Positions 5,971 to 13,987 of a DNA stretch of 39,638 bases are shown one piece after another. The position numbers and the translations under genes are program-made. The stretch covers positions 1 to 39,638 of the forward strand of contig VBBY01000061.1 of NCBI GenBank assembly GCA_005881595.1, read 5' to 3'. Position 1 is the stretch's first letter. Each line of letters starts with the position of its first letter. This DNA comes from Betaproteobacteria bacterium (GTDB lineage Bacteria > Pseudomonadota > Gammaproteobacteria > Burkholderiales > SG8-39). The notes beneath the pieces were generated by a model. The model was given only the letters and a program-made list of their open reading frames with translations, did no database searches and was not told the origin of the DNA.

Positions 5971-8394
<2,424 letters not shown>

Positions 8395-8405
8395 GACGCA
8401 GTCCC

Positions 8406-8678
8406 ATGAACAAGGCCGATCTGATTGAGCAGATCGCGCAGGCGGCCGAGATTTCGAAGTCCGCCGCCGAGCGCTCGCTCGACGCCCTCGTCGCCGCGGT
8501 GAAATCCAGCCTGCGGAAGGACGAGATGGTGACCCTGGTCGGCTTCGGCACCTTCTACGCCGCCAAGCGCGCCGCCCGCACCGGCCGCAATCCGCGCACC
8601 GGCGAGCCGCTCGACATCAAGGCGGCGCGCCTGCCGAAGTTCCGCGCCGGAAAGGCGCTGAAGGACGCCATAAACTAG
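8406..8678 (+). CDS. hupB: DNA-binding protein HU-beta
   Basis: Small histone-like nucleoid protein that bends DNA as a dimer. It has 90 residues, the canonical length. It begins [11 protein letters not shown], carries GFGTF in the dimer core, and has the DNA-grasping arm [11 protein letters not shown] around residues 58-68. It lies 11 bases after lon and may be read through from it. Its last 13 codons, stop and terminator stem are duplicated downstream at 10202-10242, and a degenerate version is at 11875-11928, so this 3' end is the reference copy of a repeat that brackets the inserted modules. Confidence 0.97.
8637..8677. repeat. Direct repeat copy 1: 3' end of hupB
   Basis: 41 bases, from AAGTTCCGCGCC to the ATAAACTA at the hupB stop. 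They are identical to 10202-10242. This copy is functional coding sequence and also forms the left arm and loop of a stem-loop. Confidence 0.9.
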
Positions 8679-8685
8679 CGTCCTT
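8661..8685. terminator. Stem-loop overlapping the hupB stop codon
   Basis: AAGGACGC (8661-8668) pairs with GCGTCCTT (8678-8685) around a 9-base loop holding the stop codon. There is no clear T-run after it (GCCTTAG follows), so termination may be weak. It lies between convergent hupB and the first post-COAP-like gene. Copy 2 at 10226-10261 has a longer stem and a proper T-run. Confidence 0.5.
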
Positions 8686-8699
8686 GCCTTAGTCGGCGT

Positions 8700-9263
8700 T
8701 CAGGCGCCCGGGCATCTGCCGCTGGAGTCCCCCGTGGTCGACGGGCTCGACGTGTGGAGTTGGATATTGCCGCCGCTCAACCCCAAGCTGGCGACGGTCG
8801 AGTAGGGGGGGATGGTTGTTATTAGCGTGATGTCGAACTCGTCCATGTCGCCCGGCTCGCCGGCGTCCCTGGCCCGCACGATGAAATCGACGTCGAATGG
8901 TGGGAGGTTCGTCCTCGCGGTGCCGCAGATGAGACGGATGCCGGTCGGGTGGCCTTGGGAGTCGGTACCGTCCGCGCCCACCCTGACGTAACCCGTGATG
9001 CTCGTCCCGTGGACTTTCACGTCGGCGCCGTGGTCGATGTACTCCAGGTGCCCCCAGAGAAATCCGTTCTTGCATCCGCCCCCGACGCCGAAGTTCGCGT
9101 GGGCGCCAGCTGTGGGGCCGGGGATGATGAAGCCGCCCCCGGTCACAAAGTCGCCGATCGGAGAGCACTCAGTCGAAGAGGACTGGGCGCTGACCGAACT
9201 GCTTGCGAGCGCGAGGGCGAGGGTCGCGATCCCGGGCGCAAGACGTGTCCAAATTGTACGCAT
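8700..9263 (-). CDS. Secreted post-COAP-1-like protein, module 1
   Basis: 187 residues from ATG 9263. The N-terminus MRTIWTRLAPGIATLALALA...VSAQ is a clear Sec signal peptide cut near residue 27. The mature part contains FVTGGGFIIP, ANFGVGGGCKNG, WGHLEYIDHG, an ICGTARTN segment and EPGDMDEF. The VTGGG / FGVGG / GHLEYIDH pattern recalls the domain NCBI calls post-COAP-1, usually found after a choice-of-anchor-P domain in one chain. Here it is a separate gene 13 bases after the COAP-like gene. Its ribosome site AAGGGAG overlaps that gene's stop, with 8-base spacing to the chosen ATG (another in-frame ATG is only 2 bases from it). No C-terminal anchor is visible. Function unknown; probably extracytoplasmic. 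The mature region is far more diverged from its module 2 paralogue than the signal peptide is. Confidence 0.75.
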   Translation of the reverse strand: MRTIWTRLAPGIATLALALASSSVSAQSSSTECSPIGDFVTGGGFIIPGPTAGAHANFGVGGGCKNGFLWGHLEYIDHGADVKVHGTSITGYVRVGADGTDSQGHPTGIRLICGTARTNLPPFDVDFIVRARDAGEPGDMDEFDITLITTIPPYSTVASLGLSGGNIQLHTSSPSTTGDSSGRCPGA

Positions 9264-9276
9264 GATCATTTCTCCC

Positions 9277-9927
9277 TTACTGAACGGCCGCGGTGGCGGA
9301 GCCGAGGACCACGTCTGCGATACCGTCGACGACAAGGTGCAGGGCGTTCACGACGATGCCGCCAGCGGTGGGCGTCTGCTCGTTGATCACGAGCCGGCCC
9401 CCCGGAAGCGAGATCGTCTGGTTCGGAGCGCCGCTCACGTCAACCGGCACGCCGTTGAGCGTGAGATTGCCGAGAACCGAGCTGCCGGTTGCGCTGCCTG
9501 CAGCCGCCTCGGCTTGAGCCAATACTGCATCGGCACCGATGCTGGTCGCGCCGACGCCAAGGACTAGGTTGCCGAGCGAAGCTTGCGAAGCGACCCGGTC
9601 GGACAAGCCGATCGCGGTCGCGTGAAGCGTTTCCGCGCTGAGCAGCGCCGGGACGCTGCCCGTGAGCTGCGAGGCTTGCCGCGCGTCGGTGAGACCGGAG
9701 AGCGTCCCGCTGCTCGCAAGGGTCGTGACCGTTCCGAGACTGTAGGCTTGCACCGCGCTCGCGATCCCGTTGACCGTTTGCGTCGTGCCACCGCCTCCTA
9801 TCGGCAGGGGCAAGGGCTGGGGCAGGCCCCCGAGTTGCGCCGCGCCGGTTACGGGCCACGCCAGCAGGCTGGCCACGAGCATGCCGCCCGCGGTGGCCGT
9901 GCGCAGGAAAGAGTCCGTGTTACGCAT
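9277..9927 (-). CDS. Secreted choice-of-anchor-P-like protein, module 1
   Basis: 216 residues. The Sec signal peptide (MRNTDSFLRTATAGGMLVAS...TGAAQ) is cut near residue 31, followed by a Pro/Gly linker and an Ala/Gly/Ser/Leu-rich beta-type domain. The segments GVPVDVSGAPNQTISLPGG and LVINEQTP, then VNALHLVVDG, match my recollection of the choice-of-anchor-P (COAP) family, so named because members carry varied C-terminal anchors. No LPXTG, PEP-CTERM or transmembrane anchor is present; the protein ends after VVLGSATAAVQ. A good ribosome site (AAGGAG, 6 bases before ATG 9927) is visible. First gene of a two-gene unit with the post-COAP-like gene. Its partner in module 2 is about 93% identical. 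Function unknown. Confidence 0.72.
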   Translation of the reverse strand: MRNTDSFLRTATAGGMLVASLLAWPVTGAAQLGGLPQPLPLPIGGGGTTQTVNGIASAVQAYSLGTVTTLASSGTLSGLTDARQASQLTGSVPALLSAETLHATAIGLSDRVASQASLGNLVLGVGATSIGADAVLAQAEAAAGSATGSSVLGNLTLNGVPVDVSGAPNQTISLPGGRLVINEQTPTAGGIVVNALHLVVDGIADVVLGSATAAVQ

Positions 9928-9997
9928 TTGAGGCTCCTTGGTTTGGGATGAGCCTCGCCATCAGAGGCGCTGCGGGTTGCACCCCGGCCGGCGCCGT

Positions 9998-10015
9998 ATA
10001 GTCCATTCGGACTAT
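9998..10015. promoter_or_regulatory. Perfect inverted repeat ATAGTCC-N4-GGACTAT, operator-like
   Basis: 7-bp arms separated by ATTC, about 70-90 bases upstream of the module 1 COAP gene. A second half-site ATTCGGACTAT lies at 10027-10037. The arrangement resembles a dimeric regulator site. It is absent upstream of module 2, where degenerate GCCGTTTGGA-type repeats occupy the matching place. Confidence 0.4.
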
Positions 10016-10038
10016 GCCCGTCCCCCATTCGGACTATC

Positions 10039-10069
10039 CCCCCCTCCCCGGCGAGGCCGGGGAGGGGGG
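10039..10069. repeat. GC-rich 14-bp stem-loop
   Basis: CCCCCCTCCCCGGC and GCCGGGGAGGGGGG pair perfectly around a 3-base loop (GAG). No T-run follows on either strand, so it is not a standard terminator. It could be a REP-like element or a hairpin in the leader of the module 1 transcript. It has no counterpart in module 2. Confidence 0.5.
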
Positions 10070-10124
10070 CCGGCAGCCCGCACCGGCCCGCCCCGGAGGC
10101 GCCGCCTCACGGCGCTCGACATGG

Positions 10125-10202
10125 TGCCGGGTGTCCCGCGCTGTCGCTGAGACGGTCCGCAGAATCCAGCCTGAGCCTGGCTGCGAGATCTACCCGGCGT
10201 AA
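10125..10202. repeat. 78-base element upstream of module 1, copy A
   Basis: About 93% identical by eye to 11720-11797 (roughly five mismatches). It contains CAGCC-TGAGCCT-GGCTG, a small inverted repeat. Conservation upstream of both COAP genes suggests promoter or regulatory content, or simply marks the edge of the duplicated unit. Confidence 0.75.
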
Positions 10203-10242
10203 AGTTCCGCGCCGGAAAGGCGCTGAAGGACGCCATAAACTA
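10202..10242. repeat. Direct repeat copy 2: hupB 3' end
   Basis: Identical over 41 bases to the end of hupB at 8637-8677, including the last codons and TAA-like end, but with no hupB gene in front of it. It marks the boundary between the two COAP modules. Confidence 0.9.
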
Positions 10243-10261
10243 ACTGGCGTCCTTCTTTTTT
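10226..10261 (+). terminator. Rho-independent terminator, probably the original hupB terminator type
   Basis: AAGGACGCCA (10226-10235) pairs perfectly with TGGCGTCCTT (10245-10254) around a 9-base loop, then CTTTTTT. It is a complete plus-strand terminator although no plus-strand gene precedes it here, which supports its origin as a copied hupB tail. It also lies just past the stop of the minus-strand module 2 gene. Confidence 0.8.
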
Positions 10262-10278
10262 GGGAGCTTGGTCGGCTT

Positions 10279-10932
10279 TTAGGCGCCCACCGCAAAATCG
10301 AGCGCGGGGCATTTCCCATCACCGAAGAAACCGAAGGTCCCGGTAATTGAATTGTTGGGCTGGTGGAGCTGGATGTTGCCACCCCCGAAGCCGCCGCCGC
10401 CCAACGTTTTGTTCGAGTCGAACTCGGTCGTGTAAACAATTCTCTGAGGGACGTTTTGGCCCACGGGTTGGGTCAGCCGGATGACGAAAATGTCATTGAC
10501 ACCTGGTTCGCCCTCGTCCTCGGCGTACACGACAAAGTTGACGTCACCGTATGCCTGGTTCGTCCTGGCCGTGCCACAAATGTAACGCGCACCGAGTGTC
10601 TTGGGGGGGGTACCGCTCGTGAACACCTCGCGATAATCCGTGATGGTGATCCAGTGAGCGTTCAGAGGGAGCTGGGTCAGGGTGCTCGTGCCTGTGCCGT
10701 GGTCGATGTACTCCAGATGGCCCCACAACCCATGTCCGTCTCCTCCATCCTTGCATGCGCCACCGACGCCGAAGTTCCCGTGGGCGCCTGAAGCCTCCGG
10801 GGAGGGAGGGGTACGGATGATGAAACCACCGCCTGTCAAAAAGTCGCACTGCCAGGCACTCGCGGAGCCGCTTGCGAGCGCGAGGGCGAGCGCCGCGATG
10901 CCGGGCGCAAGACGTGTCCAAATTGCACGCAT
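10279..10932 (-). CDS. Secreted post-COAP-1-like protein, module 2
   Basis: 217 residues from ATG 10932. The signal peptide MRAIWTRLAPGIAALALALA...SASA is nearly identical to that of the module 1 paralogue. The mature domain shares LTGGGFII, GNFGVGGACKDG, LWGHLEYIDHG, ICGTARTN and EGEP. It is only about 45% similar overall and has extra loops, including a Gly-rich GGGGFGGGNIQLH segment near the C-terminus. It lies 13 bases after the module 2 COAP gene. No anchor is seen. Family name inferred as for module 1; the molecular role is unknown. Confidence 0.75.
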   Translation of the reverse strand: MRAIWTRLAPGIAALALALASGSASAWQCDFLTGGGFIIRTPPSPEASGAHGNFGVGGACKDGGDGHGLWGHLEYIDHGTGTSTLTQLPLNAHWITITDYREVFTSGTPPKTLGARYICGTARTNQAYGDVNFVVYAEDEGEPGVNDIFVIRLTQPVGQNVPQRIVYTTEFDSNKTLGGGGFGGGNIQLHQPNNSITGTFGFFGDGKCPALDFAVGA

Positions 10933-10945
10933 GATCATTTCTCCG

Positions 10946-11599
10946 TTACTGAATGGCCGCGGTGGCGGACCCGAGGACCACGTCTGCGATACCGTAGACG
11001 ACAAGATGCAGGGCGTTCACGACGATGCCGCCCGCGGTGGGCGTCTGCTCGTTGATCACGAGCTGGCCCCCCGGAAGCGAGATCGTCTGGTTCGGAGCGC
11101 CGCTCACATCAACCGGCACGCCGCCGAGCGTGAGATTGCCGAGAACCGAGCTGCCGGTTGCGCTGCCTGCAGCCGCCTCGGCTTGGGCCAATACTGCATC
11201 TGCGCCGATGCTGATCGCGCCGATGCCAAGGACCAGGTTGCCGAGCGAAGCTTGGGAGGCGACCCGGTCGGACAAGCCGATCGCAGTCGCGTGAAGCGTT
11301 TCCGCGCTGAGCAGCGCCGGGACGCTGCCCGTGAGCTGCGAGGCTTGCCGCGCGTCGGTGAGACCGGAGAGCGTCCCGCTGCTCGCAAGGGTCGTGATCG
11401 TTCCGAGACTGGTAGTGGCTTGCACCGCGCTCGCGATCCCGTTGACCGTTTGCGTCGTGCCGCCTCCTCCTATCGGCAGGGGCACGGGCAGGGGCAGGCC
11501 CCCGAGCTGCGCCGCGCCGGTCACGGGCCACGCCAGCAGGCTGGCCACGAGCATGGCGGCGCCGGTAGCGGTCCGCAGGAAGGAATCCGCGTTTCTCAT
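10946..11599 (-). CDS. Secreted choice-of-anchor-P-like protein, module 2
   Basis: 217 residues, about 93% identical to the module 1 protein at 9277-9927 (around 15 differences), with the same signal peptide layout, SGAPNQTISLPGG and LVINEQTP segments and the same C-terminus. A strong ribosome site AAGGAGG lies about 5 bases before ATG 11599. It is first in a two-gene unit with the post-COAP-like gene. The close identity contrasts with the diverged partner genes and suggests recent duplication or gene conversion limited to this part of the module. Confidence 0.72.
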   Translation of the reverse strand: MRNADSFLRTATGAAMLVASLLAWPVTGAAQLGGLPLPVPLPIGGGGTTQTVNGIASAVQATTSLGTITTLASSGTLSGLTDARQASQLTGSVPALLSAETLHATAIGLSDRVASQASLGNLVLGIGAISIGADAVLAQAEAAAGSATGSSVLGNLTLGGVPVDVSGAPNQTISLPGGQLVINEQTPTAGGIVVNALHLVVYGIADVVLGSATAAIQ

Positions 11600-11719
11600 T
11601 TTTGCCTCCTTGGGCTGGGATGAACGCCGTCATCAGATGCGACGCGCGTTACGCGCATACACGGCGCCGTTTGAGCCGTTTGGAGTAAGCCGTTTGGATT
11701 AGTGCGCGGCGGAAAAGGG

Positions 11720-11797
11720 TGCCGGGCGTCCCGCGCCTTCGCTGAGATGGTCCGCAGAATCCAGCCTGAGCCTGGCTGCGAGATCTGCCCGGCGTAA
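11720..11797. repeat. 78-base element upstream of module 2, copy B
   Basis: Partner of 10125-10202, about 93% identical by eye. Unlike copy A it is not followed directly by a hupB tail; about 77 bases intervene. Confidence 0.75.
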
Positions 11798-11874
11798 TGC
11801 AGAAACTTAGGGTTCACGTATGACATCAGGTCGATCACTGTTCAACGCTCGCGTAGGCCGTCCCGCCCACGGAC

Positions 11875-11928
11875 CCGCGCGCCTGCCGAGCTGGCGCTGG
11901 AAAGGCGCTGAAGGACGCGATAAACTGA
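11875..11928 (+). pseudogene. Degenerate third copy of the hupB 3' end
   Basis: Begins GCGCGCCTGCCGA as in hupB, then after a 2-base net deletion reads codons for [10 protein letters not shown] and a stop (11896-11928). Against hupB, the last ten codons differ only at synonymous positions (GCT for GCC, GCG for GCC) and the stop is TGA instead of TAG. That pattern suggests it was once real hupB coding sequence, probably the original end of the gene next to tRNA-Val before the modules arrived. Confidence 0.7.
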
Positions 11929-11939
11929 GCGCCCTTTTT
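11911..11939 (+). terminator. Terminator of the third hupB tail
   Basis: AAGGACGC (11911-11918) pairs with GCGCCCTT (11929-11936) with one A-C mismatch around a 10-base loop, followed by a T-run to 11939. It lies 12 bases before tRNA-Val, where the hupB terminator would be expected in the uninterrupted gene order. Confidence 0.65.
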
Positions 11940-11951
11940 GGGTGCGTCCGA

Positions 11952-12026
11952 GGGTGCTTAGCTCAGCGGTAGAGCGCTGCCCTTACAAGGCAGATGTCGG
12001 GAGTTCGACCCTCTCAGCACCCACCA
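11952..12026 (+). tRNA. tRNA-Val (anticodon UAC)
   Basis: Acceptor GGGTGCT pairs with AGCACCC. The D arm has AGCTCAGCGGTAGAGC. Anticodon stem CTGCC/GGCAG with loop CTTACAA gives TAC. The T arm GGGAG-TTCGACC-CTCTC is intact. Discriminator A and CCA are encoded (12024-12026). Three bases before tRNA-Asp, almost certainly co-transcribed. Confidence 0.96.
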
Positions 12027-12029
12027 GAA

Positions 12030-12106
12030 GGAGCGGTAGTTCAGTTGGTTAGAATACCGGCCTGTCACGCCGGGGGTCGCGGGTTCGAGTCCCGTCCGCT
12101 CCGCCA
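12030..12106 (+). tRNA. tRNA-Asp (anticodon GUC)
   Basis: Acceptor GGAGCGG pairs with CCGCTCC. Anticodon stem CCGGC/GCCGG with loop CTGTCAC gives GTC. The T arm GCGGG-TTCGAGT-CCCGT is present. Discriminator G and CCA are encoded (12104-12106). It sits 18 bases before ppiD. Confidence 0.97.
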
Positions 12107-12124
12107 CTTGCTGTGTAGCTTCCA

Positions 12125-13987
12125 ATGTTCGATCTAGTCACCAAATACAAGCGCGTAATCCAGGTCTTTCTCGGGCTGATCGCGCTCACCTTCGCCACCT
12201 GGGGCATCGAGTCCTATACGCGCTTTCGCGGCGCGGGCGACGCCGTGGCCTCGGTCAACGGCATGAAGATCTCGCAGCGCGAGTTCACGGACGAGCTGCG
12301 TCGGCAGCAGGACCAGGTCCGCAAGATGTTCGGGCGCGCCATCGACCCGGCCGCGCTCGATACGCCGGGGTCGCGGCGCACGCTCCTCGACTCGCTGATC
12401 GCCCAGCGCCTGGTCGCGTCGGCGGCGCTCAGGGGCAACCTGACGGTGACCGACGAGACGCTGCGCGACACGATCCGCTCGATTCCCGCGTTCCAGGACG
12501 GCGGCCAGTTCTCCAAGGCGAGCTACGAGCTGGTGCTGCGCTCGCAGAACCCGCCGATGTCGCCGGCGCAGTTCGAGTCGCGGCTGCGCTACGACCTGTC
12601 GCTGCAGCAGCTCGCGCGCGCGGTCGGAGACTCGGCGATCGCGCCGCGCGCCGTCGCCCAGCGCCTGTCGGCCCTCGAGTCGCAGAAGCGCGAGGTGGCC
12701 GATGCGCGCATCCTGACGCAGCAGTTCCTTTCCGAGGCCAAGATCGACGAGGCGAAGCTGAAGGCCCATTACGACGCGAACCAGGCGGATTTCCGCACCC
12801 CGGAGCGCGTGCGCGCCGAGTACGTCGTGCTCTCGGCGGAGCTGCTTGCCCGGCAGGAGCCGGTCACCGAGGCGGAGCTCAAGAGCGCCTATGAGGCGCG
12901 CGCCGCCCAGTACCGCGTCGACGAGCAGCGCCGCGCCAGCCATATCCTGGTGAAGTCCAGGGAAGAGGCGGACAAGCTGCTCGCCGAGCTGAAAGAGTCC
13001 CCGGGGCGCTTCGCCGAGCTGGCAAACAAGCGCTCGCAGGACCCCGGGTCGGCGGCGAAGGGCGGGGATCTCGGCTGGTTCGGCCGCGGCATGATGGTGA
13101 AGCCCTTCGATGAAGCGGTCTTCAAGCTCAAGCAGAATGAGCTGCAGATCGTGCAGAGCGAGTTCGGCTACCACGTAGTGCGCCTGACCGGCATCCAGTC
13201 CGGCAAGTCGCGCCCGCTCGAGGAGGTGCGCAAGGAGCTGAGCGCCGAGCTGGCGAGGCAGAAGGGCGCGAAGAAATTCGCCGAGGCCGCGGAGAACTTC
13301 AGCAACCTGGTCTACGAGCAGCCCGACAGCCTGAAGCCGGCCGCCGAGCGCTTCAAGCTGCCGGTGCAGAGCACCGGCTGGATCGCCAAGTCGGCCAGCC
13401 AGGAGCTCGGCGCGCTCGACAACCCGAAGCTGCTGGCGGCGCTGTTCTCGCAGGATTCGATCAAGAACAAGCGCAACACCGACGCCATCGAGGTCGGACC
13501 CAGCACGCTGGTGGCCGCGCGCGTGGTCGAGTACCAGCCGGCCGCGCAGCGCAGCTTCGAGCAGGTGAGCGGCGAGATCGCGGACCTGCTGCGGCGGCGC
13601 GAAGCGGCGGCGCTCGCCGAGAAGGACGGCGCAGCGAAGCTCGAGCAGCTGCGCAAGGGCGGCGACGCCGGCGTCAAGTGGAGCGCGCCGCGCACGGTGT
13701 CGCGGCGCGATGCGCAGGGCCTGCCGGCGGAAGTATTGCGGCGGATCGTGGCCGCGGACGTCTCCAAACTGCCGGCCTATCTCGGCATGCCGGTGCCGGA
13801 AACAGGCTACCTGCTGGTCCGCATCTCGAAGGTGATGGAGGCCGAGGCGAAGCCGGCGGAGCAGCAGGCCGCGGACGCGGGCCGCGCGAGCCAGATGTTC
13901 GGGGCGGCCCAGTACGACGCCTATGTCTCGAGCCTGCGCTCTCGCGCCGACATCGACATCAGCAACGCTAATCTGGAGAGGAAGTAG
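12125..13987 (+). CDS. ppiD: Peptidyl-prolyl cis-trans isomerase D (periplasmic chaperone, membrane-anchored)
   Basis: 620-residue chaperone anchored in the inner membrane with its bulk in the periplasm, helping newly exported proteins fold near the Sec channel. A single N-terminal membrane helix spans about residues 11-28 (VIQVFLGLIALTFATWGI). A SurA/PpiD-type N-domain follows, starting with VASVNGMKISQREF. One parvulin domain is at about 270-365, with RRASHILVKS, GGDLGWFGRGMMVKPF and FGYHVVRL. The C-terminal arm is helical. No good ribosome site precedes ATG 12125; it may be translated from the tRNA-containing transcript. The 3' end overlaps convergent fabI by 20 bases. Confidence 0.93.
   Translation: MFDLVTKYKRVIQVFLGLIALTFATWGIESYTRFRGAGDAVASVNGMKISQREFTDELRRQQDQVRKMFGRAIDPAALDTPGSRRTLLDSLIAQRLVASAALRGNLTVTDETLRDTIRSIPAFQDGGQFSKASYELVLRSQNPPMSPAQFESRLRYDLSLQQLARAVGDSAIAPRAVAQRLSALESQKREVADARILTQQFLSEAKIDEAKLKAHYDANQADFRTPERVRAEYVVLSAELLARQEPVTEAELKSAYEARAAQYRVDEQRRASHILVKSREEADKLLAELKESPGRFAELANKRSQDPGSAAKGGDLGWFGRGMMVKPFDEAVFKLKQNELQIVQSEFGYHVVRLTGIQSGKSRPLEEVRKELSAELARQKGAKKFAEAAENFSNLVYEQPDSLKPAAERFKLPVQSTGWIAKSASQELGALDNPKLLAALFSQDSIKNKRNTDAIEVGPSTLVAARVVEYQPAAQRSFEQVSGEIADLLRRREAAALAEKDGAAKLEQLRKGGDAGVKWSAPRTVSRRDAQGLPAEVLRRIVAADVSKLPAYLGMPVPETGYLLVRISKVMEAEAKPAEQQAADAGRASQMFGAAQYDAYVSSLRSRADIDISNANLERK

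Follow-up and report, generated by a model that had tools for sequence, protein, structure and literature searches.

Threefold hupB 3' end beside the tRNA-Val and tRNA-Asp genes of a betaproteobacterium, and a possible promoter within it

In relatives of the betaproteobacterium studied here, tRNA-Val lies directly 3' of hupB, the normal order from which the preliminary description had started, whereas in the window (the whole stretch analysed, 39,638 nucleotides of contig VBBY01000061.1) four genes stand between the two and the hupB end is present three times. This raises the question of why an insertion should leave three copies of a gene end, one of them degenerate. The repetition probably exists because the hupB end doubles as the start signal of the tRNA genes and hence was copied when the two were separated.

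The hupB locus and its three tails

The HU gene scores above the threshold of Pfam PF00216 (108.7 bits versus 22.4) and has HU-beta as its best NCBIfam match, under the cut-off of that model (119.6 versus 157); the gene names lon and ppiD were assigned by eye. Rfam models applied to 8300-12300 detected tRNA-Val and tRNA-Asp and nothing else. The inserted DNA had been described as two secreted-protein modules lacking an integrase or transposase, and both statements hold for the four inserted genes. These comprise two post_COAP_1 and two choice_anch_P (COAP) members above the curated cut-offs, like known proteins of these families, and family searches of these genes (8700-11599) matched no integrase or transposase. 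The cargo differs from COAP/post-COAP loci elsewhere in this genome (C139 and C217 in G000), where both domains share one open frame, in being split into two short genes. Its G+C content (0.61-0.69) is similar to that of the window (0.66), and structures predicted from two-row alignments have a mean pLDDT of 39.5 for post-COAP and 36.3 for COAP.

Table 1. Coordinates of features at the hupB locus
Feature	Position	Strand	Basis or remark
hupB (HU family), complete, with tail 1 as its end	8406..8678	+	HMM match
Tail 1, functional coding end of hupB	8637..8677	+	weaker match to the conserved tRNA-proximal element of the family
Post-COAP gene 1	8700..9269	-	NF041523, 101.7 bits versus cut-off 40; signal peptide judged by eye
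COAP (choice-of-anchor P) gene 1	9277..9927	-	NF040603, 91.5 bits versus cut-off 27
Right end of unit 1, 80 bp	10123..10202	.	94% like 11718-11797
Tail 2, non-coding, identical to tail 1	10202..10242	+	read as by-product of unit duplication
Perfect 11-bp stem (10225-10235 / 10245-10255), 9-nt loop, then T6	10225..10261	+	sequence
Post-COAP gene 2, in the tree not sister of gene 1	10279..10938	-	NF041523, 61.9 bits
COAP gene 2	10946..11599	-	NF040603, 94.1 bits
Right end of unit 2, 80 bp	11718..11797	.	pairs with 10123-10202
Stretch without significant hupB similarity	11798..11874	.	shuffle test
Tail 3, putative remnant of the ancestral hupB 3' end	11875..11928	+	coding part decayed, promoter-like part kept
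Proposed tRNA promoter	11897..11934	+	conservation; no consensus match
tRNA-Val (TAC)	11952..12026	+
tRNA-Asp (GTC)	12030..12106	+

The 41-bp end of hupB (tail 1) recurs without mismatch as tail 2, which starts sharply at the end of unit 1 (GGCGTA, then AAGTTCC), and in degenerate form as tail 3, with 76% ungapped identity over 11887-11927, as described earlier; an exact 20-mer is common to all three. Since a hupB 13-mer (8625-8637) is found again at 11877-11889, copy 3 begins near 11875. Reading of its last ten codons (GCT GGA AAG GCG CTG AAG GAC GCG ATA AAC, then TGA) bears out that they differ from hupB at two synonymous sites and in the stop codon only. Tail 3 ends 23 nt before tRNA-Val, a distance contained in the family range, and has kept most of the tRNA-proximal family bases, which supports the earlier suggestion that it is the original hupB end. 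A longer hupB relic upstream of it (11798-11875) was rejected, as 219 of 1000 shuffles scored equally high, and so was a copied tRNA-Val start behind tails 1 and 2 (241 and 186 of 1000 shuffles as high, respectively).

Constraint on the hupB end and the proposed tRNA promoter

The family sample covers 24 genera, with 75 hupB genes taken from genomes other than this one; these genomes are related and therefore not independent. Of the 98 family genomes, 22 yielded no match to hupB at E 1e-22 and did not enter the sample. The third base of codon 89 is A in 73 of the 75 genes, across Ile, Val and Leu codons (ATA 22, GTA 21, CTA 16, TTA 14), and that of codon 81 is T in 71, as compared to 45 of 1098 I/L/V codons ending in TA and 62 of 1245 A/P codons ending in T among codons 2-80 of the same genes, which is a constraint on the DNA beyond the amino-acid code. 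This constrained end lies near the tRNA genes, with tRNA-Val starting 12-123 nt past hupB in all 73 loci measured and its start visible by eye before the contig end in the other two. An exception is the genus-mate G004, with ATC as codon 89 but TAAACTAGCGCCCC directly 3' of its stop codon. An earlier third-base test on 22 rows chosen by motif (one short row and G004 dropped) pointed in the same direction, is partly circular and was not used. In G005 and G009, of the same genus and without a close hupB match, ppiD was seen and the stretch examined held neither tRNA nor hupB; G007 gave a weak ppiD match only.

Judged by conservation and position, the hupB end looks like an embedded promoter of tRNA-Val and tRNA-Asp. 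Its proposed parts in the window are a -35 region CTGGAA (11897-11902), a -10 element TAAACT (11921-11926) and a GC-rich block GCGCCC (11929-11934). By our own count, TAAACT agrees with the textbook hexamer in 4 of 6 positions and CTGGAA in 3 of 6, and a scan of 8500-12200 for a sigma-70-like site (9 of 12) found none, for which the E. coli consensus may be the wrong yardstick.

Scoring against a profile of 73 genomes (G004 and G044, with TAAACT not in frame, were left out) showed that tails 1 and 3 have decayed in opposite parts. For tail 3 the scores are 17.0 at -35 (no lower than in 49 of 73 genomes) and 24.6 in the spacer (no lower than in 52 of 73), whereas its coding block upstream, at -22.6, falls under all 73 genomes. 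Conversely, tail 1 scores 17.2 in the upstream block (at least as high as all 73), but 12.8 and 19.0 in the -35 block and spacer (at least 5 of 73 each), with deviations from the conserved element at codon 81 (GCC), codon 88 (GCC) and the stop (GCGTCC); GCC is likewise codon 81 in 4 of the 75 genes, three of which have TAAACT in place. The retention is not uniform, since tail 3 reaches 57.8 over -27..+15, lower than the family median of 63.1, and its GC-rich block is at least as high as merely 13 of 73 genomes. The total for tail 1 (50.9) is inside the range of the genomes (38.4-69.3), so it would be weakened as a promoter and not dead. The -10 block is circular in this profile because the 73 rows were picked for TAAACT, which does not affect the count over 75 rows.

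The overall explanation that we favour, with a probability of roughly 70% on the sequence evidence, starts from a hupB 3' end of dual use, encoding the HU C-terminus and serving as promoter of the tRNA-Val/tRNA-Asp operon in the same bases. A pair of secreted-protein genes, accompanied by a copy of this segment, would have entered the space that separates hupB from the tRNA genes, upon which tail 1 would have retained the code and tail 3 the promoter, losing its upstream coding match. The unit of 41-bp hupB end and gene pair would later have undergone tandem duplication through an illegitimate event, with a microhomology of about 1 bp, giving tail 2, and subsequent recombination would have replaced most of one post-COAP gene. 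It had been argued that tandem duplication explains two copies but not a diverged third; this puzzle disappears if the third is a retained tRNA promoter, as one tail-duplicating insertion and one later tandem duplication then suffice.

In duplication-degeneration-complementation (subfunctionalisation), the ancestral role is divided, each duplicate giving up another part of it, as tails 1 and 3 do, although what was duplicated here is the end of a gene, with its overlapping promoter, and not a gene, and tail 1 is weakened as a promoter and not dead. Wherever the end of a gene also acts as a tRNA promoter, insertions are expected to leave a tail-like promoter relic, which is a testable rule; such relics before tRNA genes could expose other overlapping promoters and explain some repeats currently taken for attachment sites. 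The third bases of hupB would by themselves predict a tRNA operon promoter in 24 genera of one family. PMC10016265 describes a likewise embedded promoter in the coding end of E. coli uxuR; the hupB promoter would differ in serving tRNA genes, in a third-base constraint over 24 genera and in having been split from the code by duplication. None of the papers listed in our literature search was on a tRNA promoter in hupB, which may be published all the same.

Integration and hairpins as alternatives

There are integrative elements and genomic islands whose insertion into the 3' end of a gene restores that end. A site-specific integration at hupB, with the integrase acting in trans or since lost and tails 1 and 3 as attachment repeats, would agree with the rebuilt gene end, the direct repeats at both outer ends, the 20-mer shared by all tails and a patchy cargo beside tRNA genes. 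We regard it as unlikely, since the four inserted genes include no recombinase match, no second occupied site was seen (all 73 measured hupB loci are unoccupied, the site being occupied here alone) and viral contigs contained no close relative of the COAP gene. Unlike such elements, the cargo resembles the window in G+C and the outer repeat seems to retain another function as promoter. Tails 1 and 3 also share G at -14, absent from six genus-mates, which hints at a local copy; this argument is weak because G004 and many family members have the same base.

The conserved hupB end could alternatively be a terminator or RNA signal, with tail 3 kept to end transcripts or process the tRNA leader. 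In the centroid fold of L003, a genus-mate, the sequences on either side of TAAACT pair with each other, and tails 1 and 2 fold strongly in that region as compared to shuffles (z -3.77 and -5.59). Of the terminator-like hairpins earlier ascribed to all three tails, that of tail 3 is not borne out (z -1.02); like both tested genus-mates, tail 3 folds no better than shuffles. A consensus terminator scan with a loop limit of 8 found no terminator. The base at -23 falls outside the L003 hairpin, and tail 3 is now without a same-strand gene before it, for which a terminator seems unneeded. Such a role for the hupB end thus appears improbable.

Unit borders, mosaic identity and tandem duplication

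The two units have the same borders, and the junction between them joins a right end to a left end, so that a by-product of tandem duplication is the best reading of tail 2. The right end is not a scattered repeat, being found just in the two copies here among 11 genomes of the genus, this one included. The units are a mosaic, with blocks of the COAP gene and the post-COAP signal-peptide region 90-99% identical (202 of 217 aligned positions between the COAP proteins) and blocks of the remaining post-COAP gene 37-69% identical, gaps counted.

The preliminary description had proposed a module spreading by recombination at hupB tails, i.e. two units arriving successively from outside with the tail as handle for homologous recombination. 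The exact tail does adjoin diverged DNA, and post-COAP 2, with 58% identity to post-COAP 1, is nearer to the post-COAP of G110 (70% over the full length), whereas the two COAP genes are each other's sisters (94%). This proposal found no support and has a low probability, since no insert was present at the other hupB loci read, a search of relatives for the tail and gene pair found no module at hupB, and the DNA examined around module loci of other genomes held neither hupB nor tRNA-Val. The unit borders fit tandem duplication, and replacement of the post-COAP gene alone can yield the post-COAP difference. A repeat wrongly joined or duplicated by the assembler is very improbable, even in a genome fragmented into 257 contigs (3.79 Mb), as both outer flanks are normal neighbours and the units diverge over much of their length, hence are not one copy doubled.

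Within the favoured dual-use explanation, a more tentative reading is that code and promoter overlap obligatorily, making the hupB end a barrier to insertion that is passable only by copying the overlap, followed by complementary decay. The array may in addition be an exchange site, where strains may trade the secreted post-COAP part, the exact tail and the signal-peptide/COAP region forming the borders of the exchange. That tails 1 and 2 show no difference over 41 bp has a probability of 0.005-0.07 at the COAP dS of 0.13 and of 0.09-0.29 at 6%, so the two tails may have been homogenised or constrained.

Layout of the hupB locus and its counterpart in relatives

The window is one complete contig of a fragmented genome (3.79 Mb in 257 contigs), and in it hupB is followed by two units, tRNA-Val, tRNA-Asp and ppiD, the last named by eye. 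Each unit contains one post-COAP and one COAP gene on the minus strand (COAP, choice-of-anchor P) and closes with an 80-bp stretch; the two closing stretches are 94% alike and both finish in CCCGGCGTA. The exact repeat of the 41-base hupB tail and the degenerate third copy, reported in the preliminary description, were both found in place.

Features of the hupB locus in the window
Feature	Coordinates	Remark
hupB	8406-8678	upstream of both inserted units
Unit 1	8637-10201	starts with the 41-bp tail, closes with the 80-bp stretch
Tail 1	8637-8677	final 41 bp of hupB
Unit 2	10202-11797	starts with the 41-bp tail, closes with the 80-bp stretch
Tail 2	10202-10242	exact repeat of tail 1
Tail 3	11875-11928	degenerate copy of the hupB end, before tRNA-Val

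Relatives were collected by a hupB protein search of the family, so that rows were not picked by motif; at an E value of 1e-22 or better, 76 of the 98 genomes including the source genome were retained, the other 22 giving no such match. This gave 75 further hupB ends, 31 from earlier loci and 44 from newly taken stretches. In these relatives tRNA-Val directly follows hupB, starting 12-123 nt past its end in all 73 measured cases; in G010 and G011, whose contigs stop too soon for ARAGORN, its start was seen by eye. No insert was thus observed between the two genes in any of the 75, and the distance in the source genome is 3273 nt. Two members of the same genus lacking a close hupB match (G005, G009) have neither tRNA nor hupB in the examined ppiD flank (L163, L164), and the locus may be rearranged there.

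Constraint and a putative promoter in the hupB end

Constraint on the hupB end acts at the DNA level. Codon 89 in the 75 genes is ATA (22), GTA (21), CTA (16), TTA (14), ATC (1) or TTG (1), hence its last two bases are TA in 73 genes although the amino acid differs, as compared to 45 TA-ending codons among 1098 Ile/Leu/Val codons at positions 2-80 of the same genes. Codon 81 is GCT in 59, CCT in 12 and GCC in four genes, T-ending Ala/Pro codons amounting to 62/1245 in the same comparison. A at codon 89 and T at codon 81 are found throughout all genomes in 22 and 21 of 24 genera, respectively. Telling is G004 (L006, 810-823), whose codon 89 is ATC without the motif, yet TAAACTAGCGCCCC stands directly after the hupB stop. 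In an earlier set, picked by a TAAACT-containing motif, 24 of the 98 genomes matched (none with the control pattern), tail 3 of the source genome and G004 among them; conservation there begins near -28 and fades to noise after about +16 relative to TAAACT. As counted from the rows for ten genomes of other families, TAAACT lies at the same place in six and TAAA in G026, and TAAACT is absent there from G027, G030 and G040.

Three features together resemble a promoter of the stable-RNA type: TAAACT as a -10 element, a CTGG(C/A)A region lying 18 nt before it, and a GC-rich stretch after it (GCGCCCC), which is presumably akin to that of stringently controlled promoters. Counter to this reading, a sigma-70 consensus scan of 8500-12200 found no site, so that the promoter case rests on conservation and position. 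Elsewhere in the window, at 2464-2592, a tRNA-Leu has TATAAT about 40 nt upstream, by eye nearer to consensus than the hupB element.

Divergence of the three tails and origin of the array

Each tail was scored on a profile of 73 genomes; G004 and G044 were left out, as TAAACT is not in frame there. In the coding block (-37..-28) tail 3 scores -22.6, lower than all 73 genomes, and tail 1 scores 17.2, at or above all 73; in the -35 block tail 3 reaches 17.0 (at or above 49/73) and tail 1 12.8 (5/73), and in the spacer 24.6 (52/73) and 19.0 (5/73), respectively. These opposite scores therefore indicate complementary decay in the main blocks, with tail 1 merely weakened. In the GC-rich block tail 3 ranks lower (13/73) than tail 1 (19/73), its GCGCCC being displaced by one base by eye. 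Totals over -27..+15 are 57.8, 50.9 and 43.0 for tails 3, 1 and 2, within the genomes' 38.4-69.3 (median 63.1), and the best other place in the window scores 0.4. Lying before tRNA-Val and keeping its -35 block and spacer scores, copy 3 is borne out as the original hupB end. The hairpin proposed at every tail holds for tails 1 and 2, which have perfect stems (fold z -3.77 and -5.59); tail 3 and two genus-mates fold no better than shuffles.

Tail 2 begins abruptly, unit 1 finishing in GGCGTA before AAGTTCC opens the tail, and unit 2 finishes in GGCGTAATGCAG. Such a junction is expected of a tandem duplication that used microhomology of about 1 bp and broke on the left within hupB, so that a separate arrival of the second unit is unnecessary. 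The best account, to which we assign a probability of roughly 0.7, is that the hupB end is an overlap of code and promoter which would have been duplicated, its roles being divided between the copies, with the tandem duplication occurring afterwards. Site-specific integration at the hupB 3' end is unlikely; the base at -14 that tails 1 and 3 share hints weakly at a local copy instead.

Mosaic units and occurrence of their genes

COAP 1 and COAP 2 agree at 202 of 217 aligned positions (dS 0.13), and the mature post-COAP parts at 85 of 202 aligned columns (pS 0.48). The identity border is sharp at the post-COAP signal peptide (8703-9269 versus 10282-10938), with blocks of at least 93% on one side and of 46% on the other, in units that otherwise resemble each other. 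Post-COAP 2 resembles its G110 counterpart more (70%, full length) than it does post-COAP 1 (58%); in the tree the two post-COAP genes of the window are not sisters (moderate support, 0.67-0.92). One post-COAP part was probably replaced. A simple model puts the chance of seeing zero differences between tails 1 and 2 at 0.005-0.07 for the COAP dS and at 0.09-0.29 for 6% divergence, so homogenisation of the tails or constraint is possible. The G+C of the inserted genes (0.61-0.69) is near that of the window (0.66), and base composition is thus no mark of foreign origin.

Both genes are sporadic: COAP and post-COAP each occur in 8/98 family genomes, and post-COAP in 2/399 genomes of the order sample and 3/369 of the class sample (one below cut-off), the source genome being included every time. 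Of 47 module loci, some overlapping, some from the source genome and many with a flank of 1.5 kb only, four contain hupB or tRNA-Val, all from the source genome; with the 75 uninterrupted hupB ends, this speaks against the suggestion of a module spreading by recombination at hupB tails. A scan of viral contigs gave no close relatives of COAP 2; among species genomes these were two loci, from one archaeal genome. Elsewhere in the source genome, at L061 and L062 (contigs C139 and C217), a single open frame holds both domains, COAP and post-COAP; the two frames have 350 and 294 residues, respectively.
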